NCBI GenBank assembly: GCA_016930635.1
Contig: JAFGGI010000024.1
Span: forward strand, 1-47,819
From: Sedimentisphaerales bacterium
GTDB taxonomy: Bacteria; Planctomycetota; Phycisphaerae; Sedimentisphaerales; UBA12454
Reading direction: 5' to 3'
Length of the DNA: 47,819 nucleotides
Of this stretch, positions 13,224-26,400 are shown in pieces. Position 1 is the stretch's first letter. Every line of letters begins with the position of its first letter. A program made the position numbers and the translations under genes. Under the pieces are notes generated by a model. It searched no databases and was not told the origin of the DNA. It was given only the letters and a program-made list of their open reading frames with translations.

Positions 13224-13345
13224 ACGCTGATTTTTTAGCCACAAAGGCACCCGTCCTTCGCTAAAGCTACGGAGGACAGGCAAAGGCTCTAAGAAAAAAA
13301 CCTTAATAATACTTTATGACTTAGTGTCTTGGTGGCTATTTTTTG
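13220..13345. repeat. GCCACAAAGG palindrome, copy 2, carrying a nested 31-bp insert
   Basis: Same element as 12845-12942, but 31 bases (13250-13280, CCCGTCCTTCG…CGGAGGACAGG) interrupt GGCA|CAAAGG. Removing them restores a GCCACAAAGGCACAAAGG sequence matching copy 1. The insert is itself palindromic (arms 9 of 11 matching). Confidence 0.75.
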
Positions 13346-13346
13346 A

Positions 13347-13390
13347 TAACCGAATACTGATAACTGTATAATAACTGAATACCGATAACT
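13347..13390. repeat. Degenerate GATAACTG/GAATAC tandem repeat
   Basis: Alternating ACTGATAACTG, AATAACTGAATACCG motifs. The reverse complement of the same series occurs at about 25692-25761, with two extra GGTTAT-type units there. It is a low-complexity spacer repeat with no coding role seen. Confidence 0.6.
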
Positions 13391-15781: not shown

Positions 15782-16963
15782 TTATAATTTAGAAAACTTC
15801 TCTAGTTCTTCCTTATTAAAATCCTCCGCCTTTACCCACAGCCCGCTTGCTTTGCTGCGATAGAGAAAATATGAGACAATTGAGAATTGTTCAATGAGAT
15901 TCTTCGGCGCTGCCTCAGAATGACTAGATATGGACCCTGCCATTCCCCCCGGCACAGGTCCGGGGGCTAACCGAGATTGCTTTGCTTCGCTCGCAATGAC
16001 ATTAACAATTTCGTCTGTTTCTAAAAAATCCCCCAAATCAATTACCTTGTCGAAACTAATTACAAACACGCCATACGTTTGCACTTTAGATTTTCTACCT
16101 TTTTTCTTTGTGTCTTTGTGACTTTGTGGCTCAGTATCTTCGACTTTGACCTTGCCGGCCTTGTCTATATGAATAATTTTCAACTTTTCCAAATCAGTCG
16201 TCCATCTGTACGTCTGTTTGGTCAGTACAGATAACTTTTCAATTTTTTTCTTCAACCTCGCAGCCTCTTCGAAACTTAAACCGATAGATGCGGCTTGCAT
16301 CTTCCCGGCCAACTGCTCAATTACCCCGGCCGGGCTCGCCCCTGCCGAAAAGGCATCAGCAACAATCTCCTTATACTCTGCTAAACTGACCTTGCCCGCA
16401 CAAACGCCGCAGCACGCATCCATCTGGATATAAGGACAGCTTTTAGCCGCCTCGACGTCACTGACAATATCATTCCTCTTACATAACCTGAACGCATCTT
16501 CCAAGGCCTTTAAAAAAACGCCTGCCTGTCTTTGGCCGGGGAGGGGGCCGAGTATTTTTGTCCCTTTGGCCAATGCTGGTTTTTTCGTAATGGAAAACGA
16601 AGGGATTTTGTCGTTGAGATTTACCGTAATGTAGGCAGGCCAAACGAAGGTTATATAATCTTTATAGTTTTTAGCGAAGATCTGTTTAACTGCCTGGTAA
16701 TGTGCAATTGCCAGGCGGAACTTACACGGATAAGTTTTATAATATATCTTAGCTGTAATACTTTTTAAGTCAGCTTTTTTGGTAGGTTCGATTTGTTCTG
16801 CTAATTTGTTTTTGGCGTTACGTCTTATATTCGCACAGGCTAATAATAGGATAGGCCTGTCCTGAGAATCAGCGAACAGGATGAGTCCAGCCGAGGTTGG
16901 CAGGTCGGATAAATTATCATCGAAGGGGATATGGTTATCGAATATCTGGTCTATCTTTTCCAC
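15782..16963 (-). CDS. UvrC-like protein with degenerate GIY-YIG region and repeat-derived C-terminal insert
   Basis: 393 aa. The order resembles the N-terminal half of excinuclease UvrC: LPTSAGLILFADS in place of LP..PGVY, GPLPGQRQAGVFLKALEDAF like GPYPS…L, a Cys-rich CPYIQMDACCGVCAGKVSLAEY (about 164-187), and a UVR-type helix KMQAASIGLSFEEAARLKKKIEKL (about 219-242). GIY and YIG are not preserved, and the RNase H-like/HhH C-terminal half is absent, so nuclease activity is doubtful. Residues 277-295 and 320-360 are translations of intergenic repeats (SHKDTKKKG; VIASEAKQS; SHSEAAPKNLI). Start is GTG 16963 without a strong ribosome-binding site. Confidence 0.7.
   Translation of the reverse strand: MEKIDQIFDNHIPFDDNLSDLPTSAGLILFADSQDRPILLLACANIRRNAKNKLAEQIEPTKKADLKSITAKIYYKTYPCKFRLAIAHYQAVKQIFAKNYKDYITFVWPAYITVNLNDKIPSFSITKKPALAKGTKILGPLPGQRQAGVFLKALEDAFRLCKRNDIVSDVEAAKSCPYIQMDACCGVCAGKVSLAEYKEIVADAFSAGASPAGVIEQLAGKMQAASIGLSFEEAARLKKKIEKLSVLTKQTYRWTTDLEKLKIIHIDKAGKVKVEDTEPQSHKDTKKKGRKSKVQTYGVFVISFDKVIDLGDFLETDEIVNVIASEAKQSRLAPGPVPGGMAGSISSHSEAAPKNLIEQFSIVSYFLYRSKASGLWVKAEDFNKEELEKFSKL
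15896..16001. repeat. Three-repeat cassette inside a coding region
   Basis: Consecutive GAGATTCTTC…TCAGAATGAC (15896-15924), the GGCACAGGTCC-centred GC palindrome (15945-15970, identical over 26 bases to 26288-26313), and GAGATTGC…GCAATGACA (15973-16001). All lie in frame within the UvrC-like gene. Confidence 0.85.
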
Positions 16964-18021: not shown

Positions 18022-18195
18022 TTATTCTGAGCTTCGAAGCTCGAGAACCTTGTTTCTGACTGCCTGAGAGGCCTGCTTGATCTGCTGCATTTGTTTTCGA
18101 ACGCGTGTCCCTGCAGCTTTGTTACCGCCTTCAGCTTTTCTTATGTCGCTATCGGCTTCTTCCACTAACCTTTTTAGATCCTCATATTCTTGCAT
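18022..18195 (-). CDS. Histone H1-like (Hc1 N-terminal-like) protein
   Basis: 57-aa basic-acidic helical protein. MQEYEDLKRLVEEADSDI then RKAEGGNKAAGTRVRKQMQQIKQ closely follows the N-terminal domain of chlamydial histone-like Hc1 (KAEKGNKAAAQRVR in that family), with the Lys/Ala/Pro-rich DNA-binding tail absent. Start ATG 18195 is chosen because GGAGG (18203-18207) lies 7 bases upstream; a longer frame from 18225 would contain that site. A chromatin or assembly role is inferred from family only. Confidence 0.8.
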   Translation of the reverse strand: MQEYEDLKRLVEEADSDIRKAEGGNKAAGTRVRKQMQQIKQASQAVRNKVLELRSSE

Positions 18196-18312
18196 TATTA
18201 TGCCTCCATACAAAAAGTAACGCATAGAGTTTATCGGACAGAATTGTGGTTGTCAAAAAAAAATCGGCCTTTTCAACCAAAAAACCGCTATTTTTTCTAT
18301 GGCTGATGTCGC

Positions 18313-18600
18313 GTTAACTTAGGCAACAAAAACAAACCAGCTAAACCTCTCCCTATTCCTGACCGAATGGATTTTATGGCCAAGGAACTCGTAATATATT
18401 ATTCCAAAACCGGCAACACAAAGCAGATGGCCGAGGTCATTTCTGAATTTATGGACGTCTCTGGCGGATTTATGAAGTAATTTCCGTTAACTTGGGAAAT
18501 AAAGAGAAACTGGCTAAAACCTCTCCCCGTTCCTGGCCAGATGGCAATGTTAATTTAGGCAATGAAGTCCTATCTCTTATGCAGTTATTTACTGGTTGAG
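18313..18600 (+). pseudogene. Scrambled flavodoxin debris
   Basis: ATG 18376 opens MAKELVIYYSKTGNTKQMAE, nearly identical to the N-terminus of the intact flavodoxin gene on the other strand, but a stop follows after 34 codons (18478-18480). A related VNLGNK…AK phrase appears before (18313) and after (18487) this piece. At 18577-18597 LMQLFTG matches the middle of the flavodoxin (APPLMQLFTD). The pieces look like the remains of an inverted paralogue broken by deletions. No complete reading frame survives. Confidence 0.65.
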
Positions 18601-18634
18601 TAGTGAAATGAATCAACCGGGCAACGGAACCTCA

Positions 18635-18869
18635 TCAACCCAGCAGCTTTTTATGGCCTGTGTAACGAAACCACATCATCCAAACAGTTTCTTAGTAAGT
18701 TCAGCAAAAGGCCATGTTATCCAAACAATTTCTTAGTAAGTTGAGCGATGAATCGAATCAACCGAACAGTTTTTTGGTAAGTTCAGCAAGAAGCCATATC
18801 ATCCAAACAATTTCTTTGTGAGCTGAGCAGGGTGGCATATCATCCAAACAGTTTATTAGTAAGTTGAGC
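18635..18869 (-). repeat. 41-bp tandem array of flavodoxin 3' ends
   Basis: Stop-codon positions at 18635, 18676, 18717, 18758, 18799 and 18840 are spaced exactly 41 bases. Read on the minus strand, the five right-hand units encode AELTKKLFG, AQLTKKLFG, AELTKKLFG, AQLTKKLFG and AQLTNKLFG, each with a stop; the last is the real end of the flavodoxin gene. The sixth (18635) is degraded (HKKLLG-like). Differences between units are mostly third-base. Confidence 0.85.
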
Positions 18870-19316
18870 CACCTTTTGCCCCAGCTTTTGACACTGCCCA
18901 GTAACCCGCTCATCCGGCCGGCCAATCGATACACTTCCGTAATGATCTCCTTGGGCGTCGCCCTGGATGATCATGCCGTGGATTAGCATGGCTTCGAGGA
19001 TGCCCATTATTGTGGTTTCGTTGCCGCCGCCAATGTTTGCGGAACTGCTGAAAGCTGCGCCGACCTTGCCAGTGAGGCTGCCATGCCTGGATACGGAATC
19101 AGTAAAAAGCTGCATAAGCGGCGGCGCCATCTGGCCATAATATGTCGGTGAGCCAATTACAATCGCATCGACAGCCAACAGGTCAGCGACTTTGACCTTA
19201 TCGACAGGTTTGCAGTCGGTCGGCAGGCCGGAGGCGTTCATGGATTCTGAGATGATCTCGGCCATCTGCTTTGTGTTGCCAGTTTTGGAATAATAAATTA
19301 CTAACCCTTTTGCCAT
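18840..19316 (-). CDS. Flavodoxin-family protein
   Basis: 158-aa FMN-binding electron carrier or flavodoxin-like reductase. The phosphate loop YYSKTGNTKQMAE (about residues 8-20) is classic; IVIGSPTYYGQMAPPLMQLF (about 52-71) and AAFSSSANIGGGNETT (about 87-102) are the isoalloxazine-contacting loops, the latter WrbA-like. Length is between short flavodoxins and WrbA. AAAGGGA lies ahead of the ATG. The 3' end is the right-hand unit of a 41-bp tandem array, and an inverted broken copy lies just beyond, so the locus has a history of duplication. Confidence 0.9.
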   Translation of the reverse strand: MAKGLVIYYSKTGNTKQMAEIISESMNASGLPTDCKPVDKVKVADLLAVDAIVIGSPTYYGQMAPPLMQLFTDSVSRHGSLTGKVGAAFSSSANIGGGNETTIMGILEAMLIHGMIIQGDAQGDHYGSVSIGRPDERVTGQCQKLGQKVAQLTNKLFG

Positions 19317-19630
19317 AAATAATCCCTTTCAATTGAAAACCAGGGCTATTTTAAGAACATATGCAGTTATTGCACGTATTTTAAGTATAGATTGTGCGGA
19401 ATTTTCTGGACTTTTTTGTCTTTTTTGGTATAATGCCAGCCAAAGTGGTGTGAAAGGGTGTGAAAGGAAGCCGAAGCAAAGTCATCGGGGCGGAGGCTTG
19501 TGGGTGTTTTCCTGAAGTGGATTTTTAACCACAGATTTCATCCGCCGACGCCAAGGGCTATGGCGGGACAGGCAGAGAACGCAGAGAATTAAATATTTTT
19601 TTATTCGCATTTTTTAGAAGGAGCAGGGTA
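19317..19630. repeat. Spacer with a nested repeat
   Basis: ACCACAG (19528-19534) and CAGAGAACGCAGAG (19573-19586) are two halves of a common spacer repeat, separated by a 38-base insert (19535-19572) containing CCGCC/GGCGG arms. CAG appears on both sides. Otherwise nothing is seen, apart from an AAGGAG ahead of the gene at 19631. Confidence 0.6.
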
Positions 19631-22600
19631 ATGAAAAGACACACATTTCTTGCGCAAATCATTTTGTCAATTTTAGTTTTAATGTTTTCTGTTACATGTG
19701 CGATAGCAGATTCGCCGGCACCAATTGCTCATTGGAAGCTTGATGAGGGTGGAGGTACAGTTGCTTTAGATGATAGCGGCAACGGCTATAATGGGACATT
19801 AGAGCCTAATCCTCCTGGAGAAGGTGAATCTCTGCCTACCTGGGTCTCGGGCAAAATTGACGGTGCATTAGAGTTTACACAGGGAGGTCATAGTTATGTC
19901 GATTGTGGGACTGATCCTGCTCTTTGTCCTACATCAGAAATCACTGCTGCTGCCTGGGTATATGTCAGAGGTGAGTCACAAGGCAATGGAATAATTTTAA
20001 TTAAACAAGGTCCACAAGGATCATCAACCGCATCCTACAGTTTAATTTATGATGTCGATGGTGAAGAAGAAGAGAAGAGATTTGCTGTTGGTATTGAAAC
20101 AGAGTATAATACCTGGGCAGGCTATTACTCCAGTACGACCGCAGCATTGGAGAAATGGTACCACGTTGCTTTTACTTATACATCAGGCTCATTAAAGTTA
20201 TATATAAACGGCCAGTTGGACAAAGAATGGGTTGGTGAAGAGGCGCCTACGGGGGAAATAGATCTTAAAGATGGCCATTTTATGATAGGAAAAGAAGATT
20301 CGTGGCCTGTGGAGTATTTTTGGGGCATGATTGATGATGTGCGTCTCTATAATACTGTCTTATCAGCGGAAGAAATAAGCGATATTTGCGGCAGGGGTCC
20401 AATTGCTCATTGGAAGTTTGACGAGGGCTCAGGTACAGTTGCTGTGGATGTCACCGGCAACGGTTATGATGGAACATTAGGGCCTAATCCTCCTGGAGAA
20501 GGCGAATCTATGCCTACCTGGGTCCCGGGCAAAATTGGCGGTGCATTAGAGTTTACGCAGGGAGGTCATAGCTATGTCGATTGTGGAACTGAAGGTACTA
20601 ATGGTCTTTGCCCCACTTCTGCAATCACTGCCGCCGCCTGGGTATATGTCAGAGGCGAGTCAAAAGGCAATGGAATAATTTTAATTAAACAAGGCCAGGC
20701 ATCGGGAACACAGGAACTTGGGGAAGCATCCTATAGTTTAATTTATGATGTCGATGGTGAAGGAGAGGGGAAATTTGCTGTCGGTCTTCAGACAGAAGGC
20801 AATCCAGTCTGGGATGATTATCACTCTAAAACAACTGCAATATTAAATAGATGGCACCATGTCGCCTTTACATATACGTCTACGCCTACATCAGGATTAT
20901 TGAGGATTTATATTGATGGCGAATTCGACAAAGAATGGACTAATGTTACAGGGCCTATAAAAGAAACTGAGGAACTTGGTGCTTTTCTGATAGGAAAAGA
21001 AGATTCCTGGCCGGTTGAGTATTTTTGGGGCCTTATCGACGATGTTCGTCTCTATAACAGAGATTTATCAGAGCAGGAGATTTCTGAACTTTATGATTAC
21101 GAAAGTATATTTTATGTTAGTCCTTCAGGCGATGATTGTAGTGATCCTGATTGTGGAACTGCGGACAAACCTTTTAAAACTATTAATCATGCAGTTTCTA
21201 TGACAATTGATGATGATATGGTTGTGGTCATGCCGGGGACTTATGCAGAAAGTATCACAGTTTTCGGCAAGTCTATTACTATAACCGGCACTAATCCTGA
21301 TGATTGGGATATAATAGAAGATACGATTATTGATCCAACTGCTGATGGAGGTCCAGGCTCGGATTACCCAGGTATTAAAACATATACGTCTGATGCCGAT
21401 GTAACTATAGAGGGTTTGACAATACAGAATGCTGATGTTGGAATATTTGTTGTCGGTGGCAGTGAGGCCGATATTAGCAAATGTATCCTCAGCGAAAACG
21501 ATACTGGCATAATGGCATTTCTGACCGAGATATCAGTTTCAAGCTGTAAAGTATTGGGAAGCAAGATTGTTGGTATAAATTTATTGAGATCGCAGGTAGA
21601 GGCAGCAAAACAAGATGTAAAAAATAGTCTTATCAGCGGCAGTACATTCGATGGGATACTCATAAATGGGGCAGATCATAATATTACTATTCGAAACAAT
21701 ACTATAGGGGGTAATGCAAATGCCGGTATAAATGTTGCTTCTGGGGAGCGTACGAATCTCGCAATAACTAATTGTATTATCTATGGTAACGGCAGTGGAA
21801 CTCCACTTATTGGCATTGGAAGTAACGATCCAGCATACCCAACATACAGCTGCTTTGAAAATGCTACCGGTGAAACGAATACAGCAGTGGAGCCGATATT
21901 TGAGACTGATGGCTATCATTTAAGTGAAGATTCAGAATATTGTATAGATAAAGGCGATCCAGGATTTGATTATGATGATCCGCCGGGTGAGATTGATTTA
22001 GACGGTCAGATAAGAATTTTCAGAAAGCATAAAGAATTTGGACGAGTTGATATAGGCGCCGATGAATTCTGCCATGATCTATATGTCAAAACTACAGGAC
22101 ATGATGATGCTGACGGTAAGACATGGGATACGGCCCTTGCTACTATCCAAGAGGGCGTTAATTCAGCTGGCGGCAGTTTAAATGCTCCTCTGACAGTTTA
22201 TGTTAAAACGGGACATTATACGACGGGACCTATTGAGGTTGCCTATGATGGTACAAAGATAGCATTTGAGGGAGATGTTACGGTTGAAGCTGAGTCTGGC
22301 GCTTTTGCTGTCGATCCCGAAAAGAAGCATACTCTTTCAACCCAACCTTGCTTAGTGACAATACACGATTGCGAAAACATTATCATTGAAGGTTATGAGA
22401 CAACAGATGAAAATGAACGCACAGTATTCAAAATGCAAAAAGATGAATATGCACCGGCTCATGAATTCAACACCGATGATGTAGATACGATTAATAATAC
22501 AATAAGGATACCTGATCATAAATTTAAGGAAGGTGCTCAAGTACGATACTATTATGATAAAAACCCAATAAAGATCTGGGAAGTAGATAAAGAAGTGGCT

Positions 22601-25600
22601 CTTCCGCGGGCTTGGTATTATATAGTAAGCGCAAAGATAGATACTGTAAAACTGGCAAAAACTGAGGGAGGTAACCCGATTGATCTCTATTCTGCGCCAT
22701 CGGAAGAATACCATCTTCTATCTGGCGGAGAGGGACGTCATGTAATCAGGGTGACAAATTGTAAGGATATAGAAATAAGAAATGTTGAGCTGAAAGACTC
22801 CGGTGGTGACGGCATATGGCTTGGTCGAGATTATATATGGGAGGGAGAAAAGAAGGAAAACCAGGAGAAGTTCAGAAATTATAATGAAAATGTAACAATC
22901 AGTAATGTAATTTGTGATAATATTTACAGAAATGCAATCGCCGTAGCAAGTGTTGACGGATTGTTAATTGAAAATTGTAATCTGAACAATACCAGAGGTG
23001 TAGATCCGGAGAGCGGAATTGACTTCGAGCCGACCAGGGGACATCCTGACTGTAAGCTGAAGAATATAGTTGTGCGTAATATAGAGGCCACTAATAACAC
23101 AATAGGAATTCTTGTCTCGCTTCATGCACTTGATGGCACAAGCGATGATATAGATTTGGTGTTCGAAGATATTCTCATTAATAATGCATTTAATGGGTCT
23201 GATGTATATAATGCTACTAAGGGTTTTGGTATTGATGTTGCATATATTCATGATAATGAATATGGCGGCAGTGCGGATGGAACAATAAATTTTAATAATG
23301 TTACTATTGAGAATGCTTATAAAGGTATCCTTGCACGCAAATCAAGAGACAATGTAAATCTTACTTTTACAAATTGTGTTATAAGGGATTCCATTTTTAA
23401 AAATATAGAAATAGCCGAAGGAACAGGTATAGATGAGCCTGGAGGAGTAACTTTTAATGACTGCCAGGTAGTTGACAACCAGAACCGGCCGGTGATAGAA
23501 ACAGAATATTATTGCGGTACAAACTGCTATGGCATCGGGTATGGCGAATACGCAGATGATTTATATGAAATTTACGGCACTATATACTTATTAAACAATG
23601 ATTACGACCCATCTCCTTATTATGATTGGAATGGGTTAACTGAAAATGAGCTCCATGATGTTGAGATAGATGATGAAGGCCATATTATTACAGGTTTGGC
23701 GGATTTTTGCAAGGCTTTTAACAGGACGACATTTGCGTGGTATCCGTCAATTCAGGACGCTATTGATGCTGCAAGTGACGGAGATGTTATTGAAGTTATG
23801 CCGGACACTCATACTGAAAATATCACTTTCGACGGCAGCAAGACAATTACAGTTCGCGGTATGTCACCTGGGGTTACTGAGGATACTATAATAACAGCAA
23901 ATGATGATGTAGTTTCATTTTTGAATGGTGATGAGTCCATATTAAAATATATAACCGTTGAAGGTGGAACGACGGGGATATACTGCAAGGGTTCATCTCC
24001 TACTGTTAATGGTTGTATAATCCGGAATAATAGTTCAAGTGGCATCTGGTGCAACAGAATCTTACCAGAAGGCGAGAGCTCATCATCTATTATAACGAAT
24101 TGTATTATTTATGGGAATTCATTAGGAGGAATATGTATTAGTTGGTCTGAACCAGATATCCGTAATTGTACTATTGTTGACAATGGTACCGGCCATCCTG
24201 AGGCCGGTGGTATATATGGAGCTTTAAATGGTGAGTTGCCAACTATAACAAATTGTATATTATGGGATAATGATTCTCAGGATTTAGATGCTGGTTTTAC
24301 TGCAACATATAGCTGTATTGAGGATGGAGATGAAGGCCAGGGTAATATCGGGGGCTCAGAAAATAATCCTTTGTTTGTGAATCCGGCAGAAGGTGATTAT
24401 CATTTGCAGGTGGAATCACCTTGTATAAATGCTGGCGCCCCAGGTGACTATGAAGGCCAGATCGATATTGATGGCGACAGGCGTGTGTTCGGTGATGGTG
24501 TAGATATGGGTTCGGATGAATTTACTACTGCAAAATCAAATTTGTTTGTAGATGTTGACGCAGATGCCGGTGGAAGTGGATTGTCGTGGGGCACAGCTTA
24601 TAATGATCTGCAGGATGCACTTGCTGTAGCTCAGAGCGGCGATCAGATATGGGTAGCTGTGGGTACTTATAAGCCTGACGACACTGACAAGACAGTTTCC
24701 TTTGAATTGGTCGAAGATGTAGCAGTTTATGGCGGATTTGTTGGTAGCGAGACAAGTTTAAATGAGCGTAACTTGAGCAATCCTGCCAACGAGACTATTT
24801 TAAACGGTGATATTGATGATGATGGACTCGATCTGGGCAATAGTCAACATGTTGTAAAAGGTGCTGACGGAGCTGTTCTTGACGGTTTTACGGTTAAACA
24901 GGGATATGCGGATGATTCTTCTAATCCCTATCTTCCTGATGCCGGCGGCGGTATGTTTAATGCTGAGGTGTCGCCGATAGTAAGGAATTGCATATTTACC
25001 GAAAATAATGCTTTAGCGGGCGGAGGAGTTTGCAATGTGGATAGTTTAGCTGAGTTTATAAATTGTGTCTTTAAAGATAACTGTCCTGCGCCAATACCTG
25101 CGATGTACGGCAGCGGTATGTATTGCTCAAACAGTGCAAATTCAAATATTGGTCCGGCAGTAACCAATTGTCTGTTTACCAGGAACTACAGTGCTTTCGG
25201 TGGTGATGGGATATATATAAAAGACAGCTCTCCAAAGATTACTAATTGCACTATTAGTGGTAATGGCGGTGTTTTAACATCTGGCGGCGCACTTCATTTT
25301 GCAGGTTCCGGTGGGCCTGAAGTTACTAACTGTATTTTATGGGGCAATGACTATGGCAGTGAGATATACATAGAGGGTAGTAGTATAAATCCTGTTATTA
25401 ACTATTGTGATATTAAAGGCGGCTGGGCTACTGGAACAGGTAATATAGGTGAAGATCAAATAAATCATGATCCAGATTTTGCTACTGATGGTTACCATTT
25501 GACGTTGAATTCGCCATGTATTGATGCAGGCAGTCCGTATCTAAATTATGACGGCCAGGTTGATATTGATGGCCAAGAGCGTGTAAATGGTGATTATGTT

Positions 25601-25630
25601 GATATGGGCGCAGATGAATATCATCCTTAA
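19631..25630 (+). CDS. Giant secreted LamG and beta-helix protein with choice-of-anchor-Q-type repeats
   Basis: 1999-aa exoprotein. Signal peptide at residues 1-27 (…VTCAIADSPAP). Two LamG/concanavalin-like domains (about 30-250 and 256-485) share long near-identical stretches (NPPGEGES, ALEFTQGGHSYVDCGT, GKEDSWPVEYFWG). From ~494 (YVSPSGDD) three right-handed parallel beta-helix blocks follow, with repeats like ITNCIIYGN. The blocks end near 812, 1631 and 1999 with CIDxGxPxx…DIDGxxRxxGxxVDMGADE, the choice-of-anchor Q style. Likely binds or processes polysaccharide at the cell surface; no catalytic residues identified. No sortase or PEP-CTERM anchor at the C-terminus. AAGGAG before ATG; terminator at 25653. 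Confidence 0.85.
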   Translation: MKRHTFLAQIILSILVLMFSVTCAIADSPAPIAHWKLDEGGGTVALDDSGNGYNGTLEPNPPGEGESLPTWVSGKIDGALEFTQGGHSYVDCGTDPALCPTSEITAAAWVYVRGESQGNGIILIKQGPQGSSTASYSLIYDVDGEEEEKRFAVGIETEYNTWAGYYSSTTAALEKWYHVAFTYTSGSLKLYINGQLDKEWVGEEAPTGEIDLKDGHFMIGKEDSWPVEYFWGMIDDVRLYNTVLSAEEISDICGRGPIAHWKFDEGSGTVAVDVTGNGYDGTLGPNPPGEGESMPTWVPGKIGGALEFTQGGHSYVDCGTEGTNGLCPTSAITAAAWVYVRGESKGNGIILIKQGQASGTQELGEASYSLIYDVDGEGEGKFAVGLQTEGNPVWDDYHSKTTAILNRWHHVAFTYTSTPTSGLLRIYIDGEFDKEWTNVTGPIKETEELGAFLIGKEDSWPVEYFWGLIDDVRLYNRDLSEQEISELYDYESIFYVSPSGDDCSDPDCGTADKPFKTINHAVSMTIDDDMVVVMPGTYAESITVFGKSITITGTNPDDWDIIEDTIIDPTADGGPGSDYPGIKTYTSDADVTIEGLTIQNADVGIFVVGGSEADISKCILSENDTGIMAFLTEISVSSCKVLGSKIVGINLLRSQVEAAKQDVKNSLISGSTFDGILINGADHNITIRNNTIGGNANAGINVASGERTNLAITNCIIYGNGSGTPLIGIGSNDPAYPTYSCFENATGETNTAVEPIFETDGYHLSEDSEYCIDKGDPGFDYDDPPGEIDLDGQIRIFRKHKEFGRVDIGADEFCHDLYVKTTGHDDADGKTWDTALATIQEGVNSAGGSLNAPLTVYVKTGHYTTGPIEVAYDGTKIAFEGDVTVEAESGAFAVDPEKKHTLSTQPCLVTIHDCENIIIEGYETTDENERTVFKMQKDEYAPAHEFNTDDVDTINNTIRIPDHKFKEGAQVRYYYDKNPIKIWEVDKEVALPRAWYYIVSAKIDTVKLAKTEGGNPIDLYSAPSEEYHLLSGGEGRHVIRVTNCKDIEIRNVELKDSGGDGIWLGRDYIWEGEKKENQEKFRNYNENVTISNVICDNIYRNAIAVASVDGLLIENCNLNNTRGVDPESGIDFEPTRGHPDCKLKNIVVRNIEATNNTIGILVSLHALDGTSDDIDLVFEDILINNAFNGSDVYNATKGFGIDVAYIHDNEYGGSADGTINFNNVTIENAYKGILARKSRDNVNLTFTNCVIRDSIFKNIEIAEGTGIDEPGGVTFNDCQVVDNQNRPVIETEYYCGTNCYGIGYGEYADDLYEIYGTIYLLNNDYDPSPYYDWNGLTENELHDVEIDDEGHIITGLADFCKAFNRTTFAWYPSIQDAIDAASDGDVIEVMPDTHTENITFDGSKTITVRGMSPGVTEDTIITANDDVVSFLNGDESILKYITVEGGTTGIYCKGSSPTVNGCIIRNNSSSGIWCNRILPEGESSSSIITNCIIYGNSLGGICISWSEPDIRNCTIVDNGTGHPEAGGIYGALNGELPTITNCILWDNDSQDLDAGFTATYSCIEDGDEGQGNIGGSENNPLFVNPAEGDYHLQVESPCINAGAPGDYEGQIDIDGDRRVFGDGVDMGSDEFTTAKSNLFVDVDADAGGSGLSWGTAYNDLQDALAVAQSGDQIWVAVGTYKPDDTDKTVSFELVEDVAVYGGFVGSETSLNERNLSNPANETILNGDIDDDGLDLGNSQHVVKGADGAVLDGFTVKQGYADDSSNPYLPDAGGGMFNAEVSPIVRNCIFTENNALAGGGVCNVDSLAEFINCVFKDNCPAPIPAMYGSGMYCSNSANSNIGPAVTNCLFTRNYSAFGGDGIYIKDSSPKITNCTISGNGGVLTSGGALHFAGSGGPEVTNCILWGNDYGSEIYIEGSSINPVINYCDIKGGWATGTGNIGEDQINHDPDFATDGYHLTLNSPCIDAGSPYLNYDGQVDIDGQERVNGDYVDMGADEYHP

Positions 25631-25652: not shown

Positions 25653-25688
25653 AAGCCCCTGCGGTTTCGCAATCGCGGGGGCTTTTTT
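25653..25688 (+). terminator. Intrinsic terminator after the LamG/beta-helix gene
   Basis: AAGCCCC-TGCG pairs with CGCG-GGGGCTT around a short loop, followed by six T; it begins 22 bases after the stop codon. Confidence 0.85.
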
Positions 25689-25689
25689 A

Positions 25690-26400
25690 TTAGTCAGTTA
25701 TCGGTATTCAGTTATCGGTTATTATACAGTTATCAGTATTCGGTTATCGGTTATCAGATAGAGATTCTTCGGCGATGCCCCCTAAGGGGCAAGCTCAGAA
25801 TGACCCCACACCAATTTTGTTTTACCGTGGTGATAATGGAAGAACCGCCGCACCTGTTTTTTTTAATAAATTATGGAGATGAAGGAATGTTTAACATGTG
25901 CGGGGTAAATACCCAATTGGTGCGGGATGGAGATTGCCGCGGCCTTCGGCCTCGCAATGACAAAGAAAAGTTTGAAAGGTGGGAAGGTGAAAGGGTCATT
26001 GGTATTTAGTATATGGTATTTGGTAGGGGGCGGGAACTGTTTTTAACGTTCAACATTGAACATCTAACTTCGAACATCCAATGCGGAACCGCCTTCCGTC
26101 CTTCGTCCCTAAGGGACTACGGAGGACAGGTCGGCGGGGAATTTATTGCCCCCCGGTAAAACCAGGGGCTAACCGAAAAGCAACCCCACGACACGTCGTG
26201 GGGCTAAATATAAAACCCCGACTGTAGGGGTCGGGGCTAACCGAGATTTTTTAAACCCCCACTAAAAGTGGGGGCTAAATATTTAAACCCCCCGGCACAG
26301 GTCCGGGGGCTAAACGGGAGATTCTTCACTGCGTCCCTAAGGGGCAAGTTCAGAATGACATGGGGTGGGTAGAATAGGGTGGACAAAGGGTTAAAAAAAG
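25690..26400. repeat. Gene-free stretch of mixed palindromic repeats
   Basis: In order: AGTTATCGGTATTC repeats (25692-25761); GAGATTCTTC…TCAGAATGAC with a GCCCCCTAAGGGGC core (25761-25803); GAGATTGC…GCAATGACA with a GGCCTTCGGCC core (25931-25961); AACATTGAACATC-type repeat (26051-26080); CCGTCCTTCG…CGGAGGACAGG with a GTCCCTAAGGGAC core (26096-26130); five GC palindromes ending GGGGCTAA (26149-26313); and another GAGATTCTTC…TCAGAATGACA (26318-26360). The frame at 25800-26009 only translates repeats. Confidence 0.8.

Follow-up and report, generated by a model that had tools for sequence, protein, structure and literature searches.

Directly behind the flavodoxin gene of an uncultured planctomycete lies a tandem array of 41-bp units, each made up of the last 30 bases of that gene, stop included, and an 11-bp spacer. 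The array, its uniqueness and the insertion that surrounds it are solidly established. The unit cores kept their peptide after the units separated while the spacers drifted freely, a statistical result drawn from few substitutions. Protein-level constraint on the copies is likely, with about ten changes behind the claim, and our leading explanation, which we put forward tentatively, is that the units may be translated in place by coupling to the stop upstream of them.

A gene-end array within a lineage-specific insertion

The source genome (2.45 Mb, 64 contigs) has Phycisphaerae and Planctomycetes MAGs as its nearest named relatives, and the window referred to below is the whole stretch of DNA that was analysed, 47,819 nucleotides. 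The flavodoxin gene (18840-19316, minus strand) is an ORF of 158 aa that matches Pfam flavodoxin families, and its relatives are present in 52 of 59 related genomes. Elsewhere in the window, 19631-25630 is predicted to encode a very large protein (1999 aa) in which two laminin-G-like domains are accompanied by several stretches of beta-helix. Short tandem repeats of the TGATAACTGAATAC / TCAGTTATCGGTAT type lie between genes in two places (13344-13390 and 25687-25758). A stretch at 15930-16060 (minus) contains NVIASEAKQSRLAPGPVPGGMAGSISSHSEA, apparently a dispersed repeat that is read in frame as part of the ORF 15782-16963, whose protein has no Pfam match.

Six minus-strand stops end at 18840, 18799, 18758, 18717, 18676 and 18635, so that the exact 41-base step of the original prediction is confirmed. 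Translation likewise bears out its claim that the five right-hand units encode A(Q/E)LT(K/N)KLFG-stop: on the minus strand, the cores read AQLTNKLFG in u1 (18840-18869), AQLTKKLFG in u2 (18799-18828), AELTKKLFG in u3 (18758-18787), AQLTKKLFG with a TAA stop in u4 (18717-18746) and AELTKKLFG in u5 (18676-18705), each followed by its stop. The core of u1 is the last 30 nt of the live gene. The derivation of the copies from the flavodoxin end is supported. The sixth unit, u6 (18635-18664, minus), reads YTGHKKLLG-stop; together with its spacer it agrees with the consensus unit, in register, at 21 of the 41 positions (P about 8e-4) and is therefore probably a decayed unit. A possible further decayed unit junction lies at 18595-18619 (minus; 80% identity to 18740-18764). 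The 11-bp spacers s1 to s6 (minus) occupy 18829-18839, 18788-18798, 18747-18757, 18706-18716, 18665-18675 and 18624-18634, and with cores u2-u6 they form the part of the array outside the gene (18624-18839, minus).

With head-to-tail copies, five to six in number, at a constant period of 41, the array is a tandem repeat of the minisatellite kind. TRF reports a period of 41 with 5.0 copies and 72% matches, and a higher-scoring row at period 82 with 80% matches. Units u2-u5 alternate Q, E, Q, E and TTG, CTG, TTG, CTG, and this alternation, with the higher-scoring 82-bp period, points to a two-unit duplication. Among planctomycete relatives, IAELTKKLF is the common C-terminal end, and the unit peptides are nearer to this family consensus than is the live gene's own AQLTNKLFG. 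At the same time, every unit is closer to the flavodoxin gene of the source genome than to any sampled relative.

In relatives, flavodoxin is followed downstream by a conserved neighbour, an Hc1 histone-like gene (here 18022-18195, minus; Pfam PF07432). Of the 12 relatives whose flavodoxin is most similar, 11 have 82-139 bp between the two genes, and the remaining one has 444 bp and no array. In the source genome this gap measures about 640 bp, so that, by comparison with the 82-139 bp of relatives, it has gained an insertion of about 545 bp immediately after the flavodoxin stop. This lineage-specific insertion, delimited by comparing the gap with that of relatives and not assigned to a strand (18300-18839, left end approximate), lies between the flavodoxin stop and the native stretch upstream of Hc1, which has been retained.

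Besides the array, the insertion holds an inverted copy of the flavodoxin 5' end (MAKELVIYYSKTGNTKQMAEVISEFMDVSG; 18376-18465, plus), with 83% identity over 93 nt (18373-18465) and a stop after 34 codons. When the differences are polarised with relatives, the live gene has about 4 changes, all synonymous, and the copy about 10, roughly half of them amino-acid changes; in our reading of these sequences, the inverted start is probably a mostly neutral relic of moderate age. Further flavodoxin pieces are scattered over 18534-18675 (plus), with 12 nt at 18534, 27 nt at 18576 and 12 nt at 18664, and the sequence between them is not alignable. For the 50-base stretch holding the 18576 piece, the alignment beats every one of 3000 shuffles; most of the other intervals cannot be aligned. 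Because only the start and small anchors align, we reject a full-length decayed inverted flavodoxin copy and take the insertion to be a mosaic. It also carries a second imperfect direct repeat (18312-18402 and 18485-18580, plus; 72% over 97 columns), which reads VNLGNK on the plus strand or PKLT on the minus strand. The differences between its two copies are third-base-heavy, which is not significant alone (P = 0.14), and searches for homologues of this repeat found none. The 93-nt inverted repeat 18373-18465 / 19227-19319 pairs the live flavodoxin start with the plus-strand copy, and recombination between its arms would flip the gene body and the array, giving a flavodoxin with a slightly different start.

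No second copy of the insertion sequence occurs in the source genome, and this uniqueness leads us to reject a mobile element or another genomic source. No further array turned up when 161 genomes of the order were searched at the DNA level; the weak matches were 24-26 bases long, and one of them was the flavodoxin end of the genome in which it lay. Among 325 gene ends covered by a 417-kb sample of the source genome there is no comparable array, so gene-end arrays are not a general habit of this genome, and there is none at 494 genes in the relatives' loci. Viral contigs yielded no relative. Several intact tandem flavodoxin genes in relatives, from which the array could have collapsed, had been named as the finding that would overturn the original prediction. 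We looked for them and saw none; with a single full gene here, a collapse of tandem flavodoxin genes to their ends is rejected. In two relatives' loci (L114 and L091), the flavodoxin-Hc1 gap has weak matches to that genome's own flavodoxin gene (28 nt at 79% and 31 nt at 74%, respectively), marginal after 11 tests, and these might hint that small flavodoxin pieces arise in the gap of other lineages too.

Codon pattern of the array units

Nine core columns vary across u1-u5: six third bases, the first base of a Leu codon (CTG/TTG), the second base of the stop (TGA/TAA) and the first base of the Q/E codon. Other than Q/E, u2-u5 show no amino-acid change. When the same changes are re-placed at random in the columns, as few amino-acid changes arise at P = 0.0008 for u1-u5 and P = 0.0003 for u2-u5. 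In a tree-independent test limited to singletons in the non-gene units u2, u3 and u4, 8 of 8 were synonymous, with TGA/TAA counted as synonymous (P = 9e-6 to 1.3e-4 across transition weights 1 to 8, with no correction for the way in which the case came to notice). At first and second codon positions of the cores, 3 of 20 columns are variable, as against 10 of 11 columns in the spacers (P = 6e-5); without the outlier spacer s3, variable spacer columns fall to 8 of 11 and the contrast to P = 0.004. Core third positions (6 of 10 variable) do not differ significantly from spacers. Third bases thus drifted about as much as the spacers, and the peptide did not.

These results support the original prediction's claim that the codon-level pattern is unexpected of neutral copies, as column re-placement, the singletons and the comparison of cores with spacers all agree. 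The numbers behind this departure from neutrality are small: the codon test is based on 8 to 12 changes only, and its effective significance is weaker than the nominal values because the pattern was spotted before testing. Coding on the plus strand is rejected, since it is only in the minus-strand reading that the exchanges in the Leu and stop codons are silent. Structure in the array RNA is likewise rejected, its stability not exceeding that of shuffles (z = 0.49), and an Rfam search returned nothing relevant.

Possible explanations for the codon pattern

A local rearrangement in this lineage placed the roughly 545 bp directly behind the flavodoxin gene, and this DNA holds an inverted partial gene start, small scrambled flavodoxin pieces and the tandem array of 41-bp units. 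The units outside the gene, translated where they stand now or recently, would have diverged in parallel under protein constraint, and it is this parallel divergence of several non-gene units from which we infer translation in situ. The likeliest route would be stop-start coupling, in which the NTG within an NTGA stop opens a 14-codon frame to the next KLFG-stop. The last Gly codon ends in A, and this A makes up ATGA with the TGA stop that follows; the ATG opens the -1 frame through the 11-bp spacer to the next KLFG-stop. A 14-codon ORF (15 codons with its stop), overlapping the preceding stop by four bases, is thereby possible in each unit and fits the period, as 41 = 45 - 4. The original prediction held that a period of 41 rules out a read-through protein; this stands, but it does not extend to translation by coupling of this kind.

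As candidate coupled ORFs on the minus strand, u2 would span 18799-18843 (MICHPAQLTKKLFG, then a stop), with its ATG overlapping the flavodoxin stop (ATGA); u3 would span 18758-18802 (MIWLLAELTKKLFG, then a stop; ATGA), in a frame that is also open from an ATG at 18838 (26 codons); and u4 would span 18717-18761 from a TTG start (TTGA). The ATG overlap with the u5 stop is retained at u6. The -4 nt NTGA arrangement is the commonest spacing of coupled bacterial ORFs, which supports coupling, and coupling is efficient at spacings between -4 and +3 (PMC12548453). An NTG overlapping the upstream stop and in frame with the next core occurs at 5 of 6 junctions (ATG, ATG, TTG, ATG and TTG, with ATA before u5), which is likely enough by chance: NTGA is near-automatic at any TGA, the needed frame has a chance of 1 in 3 and open spacers one of 0.52, so the coupling anatomy is not itself significant. 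Its value is rather that it suggests a route to peptide constraint on several units at once, where the fossil-series account taken up below and gene conversion give none.

Some observations weigh against translation in situ. The core of u5 is intact, yet its frame has no ATG, GTG or TTG start, the preceding junction being ATAA, and there is no sign of constraint on the five residues that each spacer contributes. A homologue search with the unit peptides found none. In the fully specified form of the proposal, 14-codon ORFs linked stop to start would each carry a copy of the flavodoxin C-terminus that is translated and selected as a peptide, with the period set by 15 codons minus a four-base overlap; this form is more doubtful. 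As to function we can only guess; the products might be extra copies of the flavodoxin C-terminal peptide, or coupling might simply stop ribosomes from leaving the mRNA on the way to Hc1.

That slippage merely duplicated the gene end in tandem, giving neutral copies whose changes look synonymous by chance, is a serious possibility, if not a probable one. Tandem gene-end copies require no function, the changes are few, the case was chosen for its pattern, and the neighbouring inverted copy decays mostly neutrally. It would, however, have to accommodate probabilities of about 1e-5 to 1e-3 before correction, as well as the contrast between cores and spacers, which persists when s3 is left out.

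We consider it rather unlikely that unequal recombination with homologous DNA lengthened an array that was short in the ancestor, each exchange adding the live gene end of a foreign related strain, so that the synonymous differences would have arisen in real genes elsewhere. Such imports would account for constraint on the flavodoxin part only, not on the spacer, and for unit peptides that match the family consensus. However, u2 and u3 have private synonymous changes and look like an 82-bp block paired with u4-u5, and only one unit of such a block could have been a live end. The account further needs repeated recent exchange between lineages substantially diverged at third positions, and several diverged donors sharing the same register, whereas all units resemble the gene of the source genome more than that of any sampled relative and no relative with the array was found.

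Indirect selection on the units as spare gene ends is very unlikely. Here, slipped-strand deletion would often make a downstream unit the real gene end, so that broken units are selected against, and any core-to-core deletion does leave an intact A(Q/E)LTKKLFG end, as read from the sequence. Selection of this kind would scale with the deletion rate and so need a very large population, we argue, and turnover fast enough for selection would also make the units alike. Least probable of all is the fossil series put forward in the original prediction, in which each unit was once the live gene end and then became a neutral relic, the oldest farthest away. Core distances from u1 are 5, 5, 3, 2 and 15 for u2-u6; the farthest clear unit, u6, is indeed the most decayed, but among the intact units the order is reversed, with gene-proximal u2 and u3 more diverged than u4 and u5. 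Relics, which decay at all positions, should also have gained amino-acid changes as fast as the spacers changed, and it speaks against relics that several units outside the gene changed in parallel and only synonymously. The other possibility raised there, small coding modules, fits better than the fossil series.

If the units are translated in place, the locus would exemplify an array in which the overlap of start and stop, and not a multiple of codons, fixes the repeat period, and which in-frame repeat scans would miss; the last residues of a gene would have been turned into separate short products. If the ends were instead imported from other strains, past exchange at a single gene could be read from the array. 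Should neither hold, it cautions how convincing a codon pattern of a dozen changes can look. The locus is an odd one, and would become interesting if relatives repeat the pattern.

Relation to known systems

Our search of the literature on gene-end tandem arrays and template-switch insertions found nothing that directly matches this locus. Like a bacterial minisatellite formed by replication slippage, the array has head-to-tail imperfect copies at a fixed period and adjoins a gene end, but here each copy keeps a reading frame and stop, with change that is almost only synonymous, beside a drifting spacer. Shufflon-type arrays provide alternative gene ends, with several copies of a 3' gene segment behind one gene. 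The present locus shares that layout, but its units are direct repeats, and the search for inverted repeats returned no pair of unit cores. Since the encoded end is the same throughout, shufflon-like switching would change nothing; a shufflon is rejected on these grounds. A CRISPR array is rejected because the 11-nt spacers are mutually related and the repeats differ at 2-8 of 30 positions. Integrase attachment-site scars are rejected because only 11 bp separate successive ends and the insertion has no integrase-length ORF, and a diversity-generating retroelement because the changed columns include C/G, T/C and G/A and track codon positions.

The surrounding insertion resembles a template-switch or inverted-duplication rearrangement in that an incomplete inverted copy of the gene and short rearranged pieces lie together in about 0.5 kb, although a tandem array with codon-level constraint is not expected from a single event of this type. 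The candidate ORFs themselves resemble NTGA-coupled ORFs with a -4 nt overlap (PMC12548453), in that stop and NTG overlap at five of the six junctions with the next core in frame. They would differ in being 14-codon repeats of the upstream gene's own end and not separate genes.
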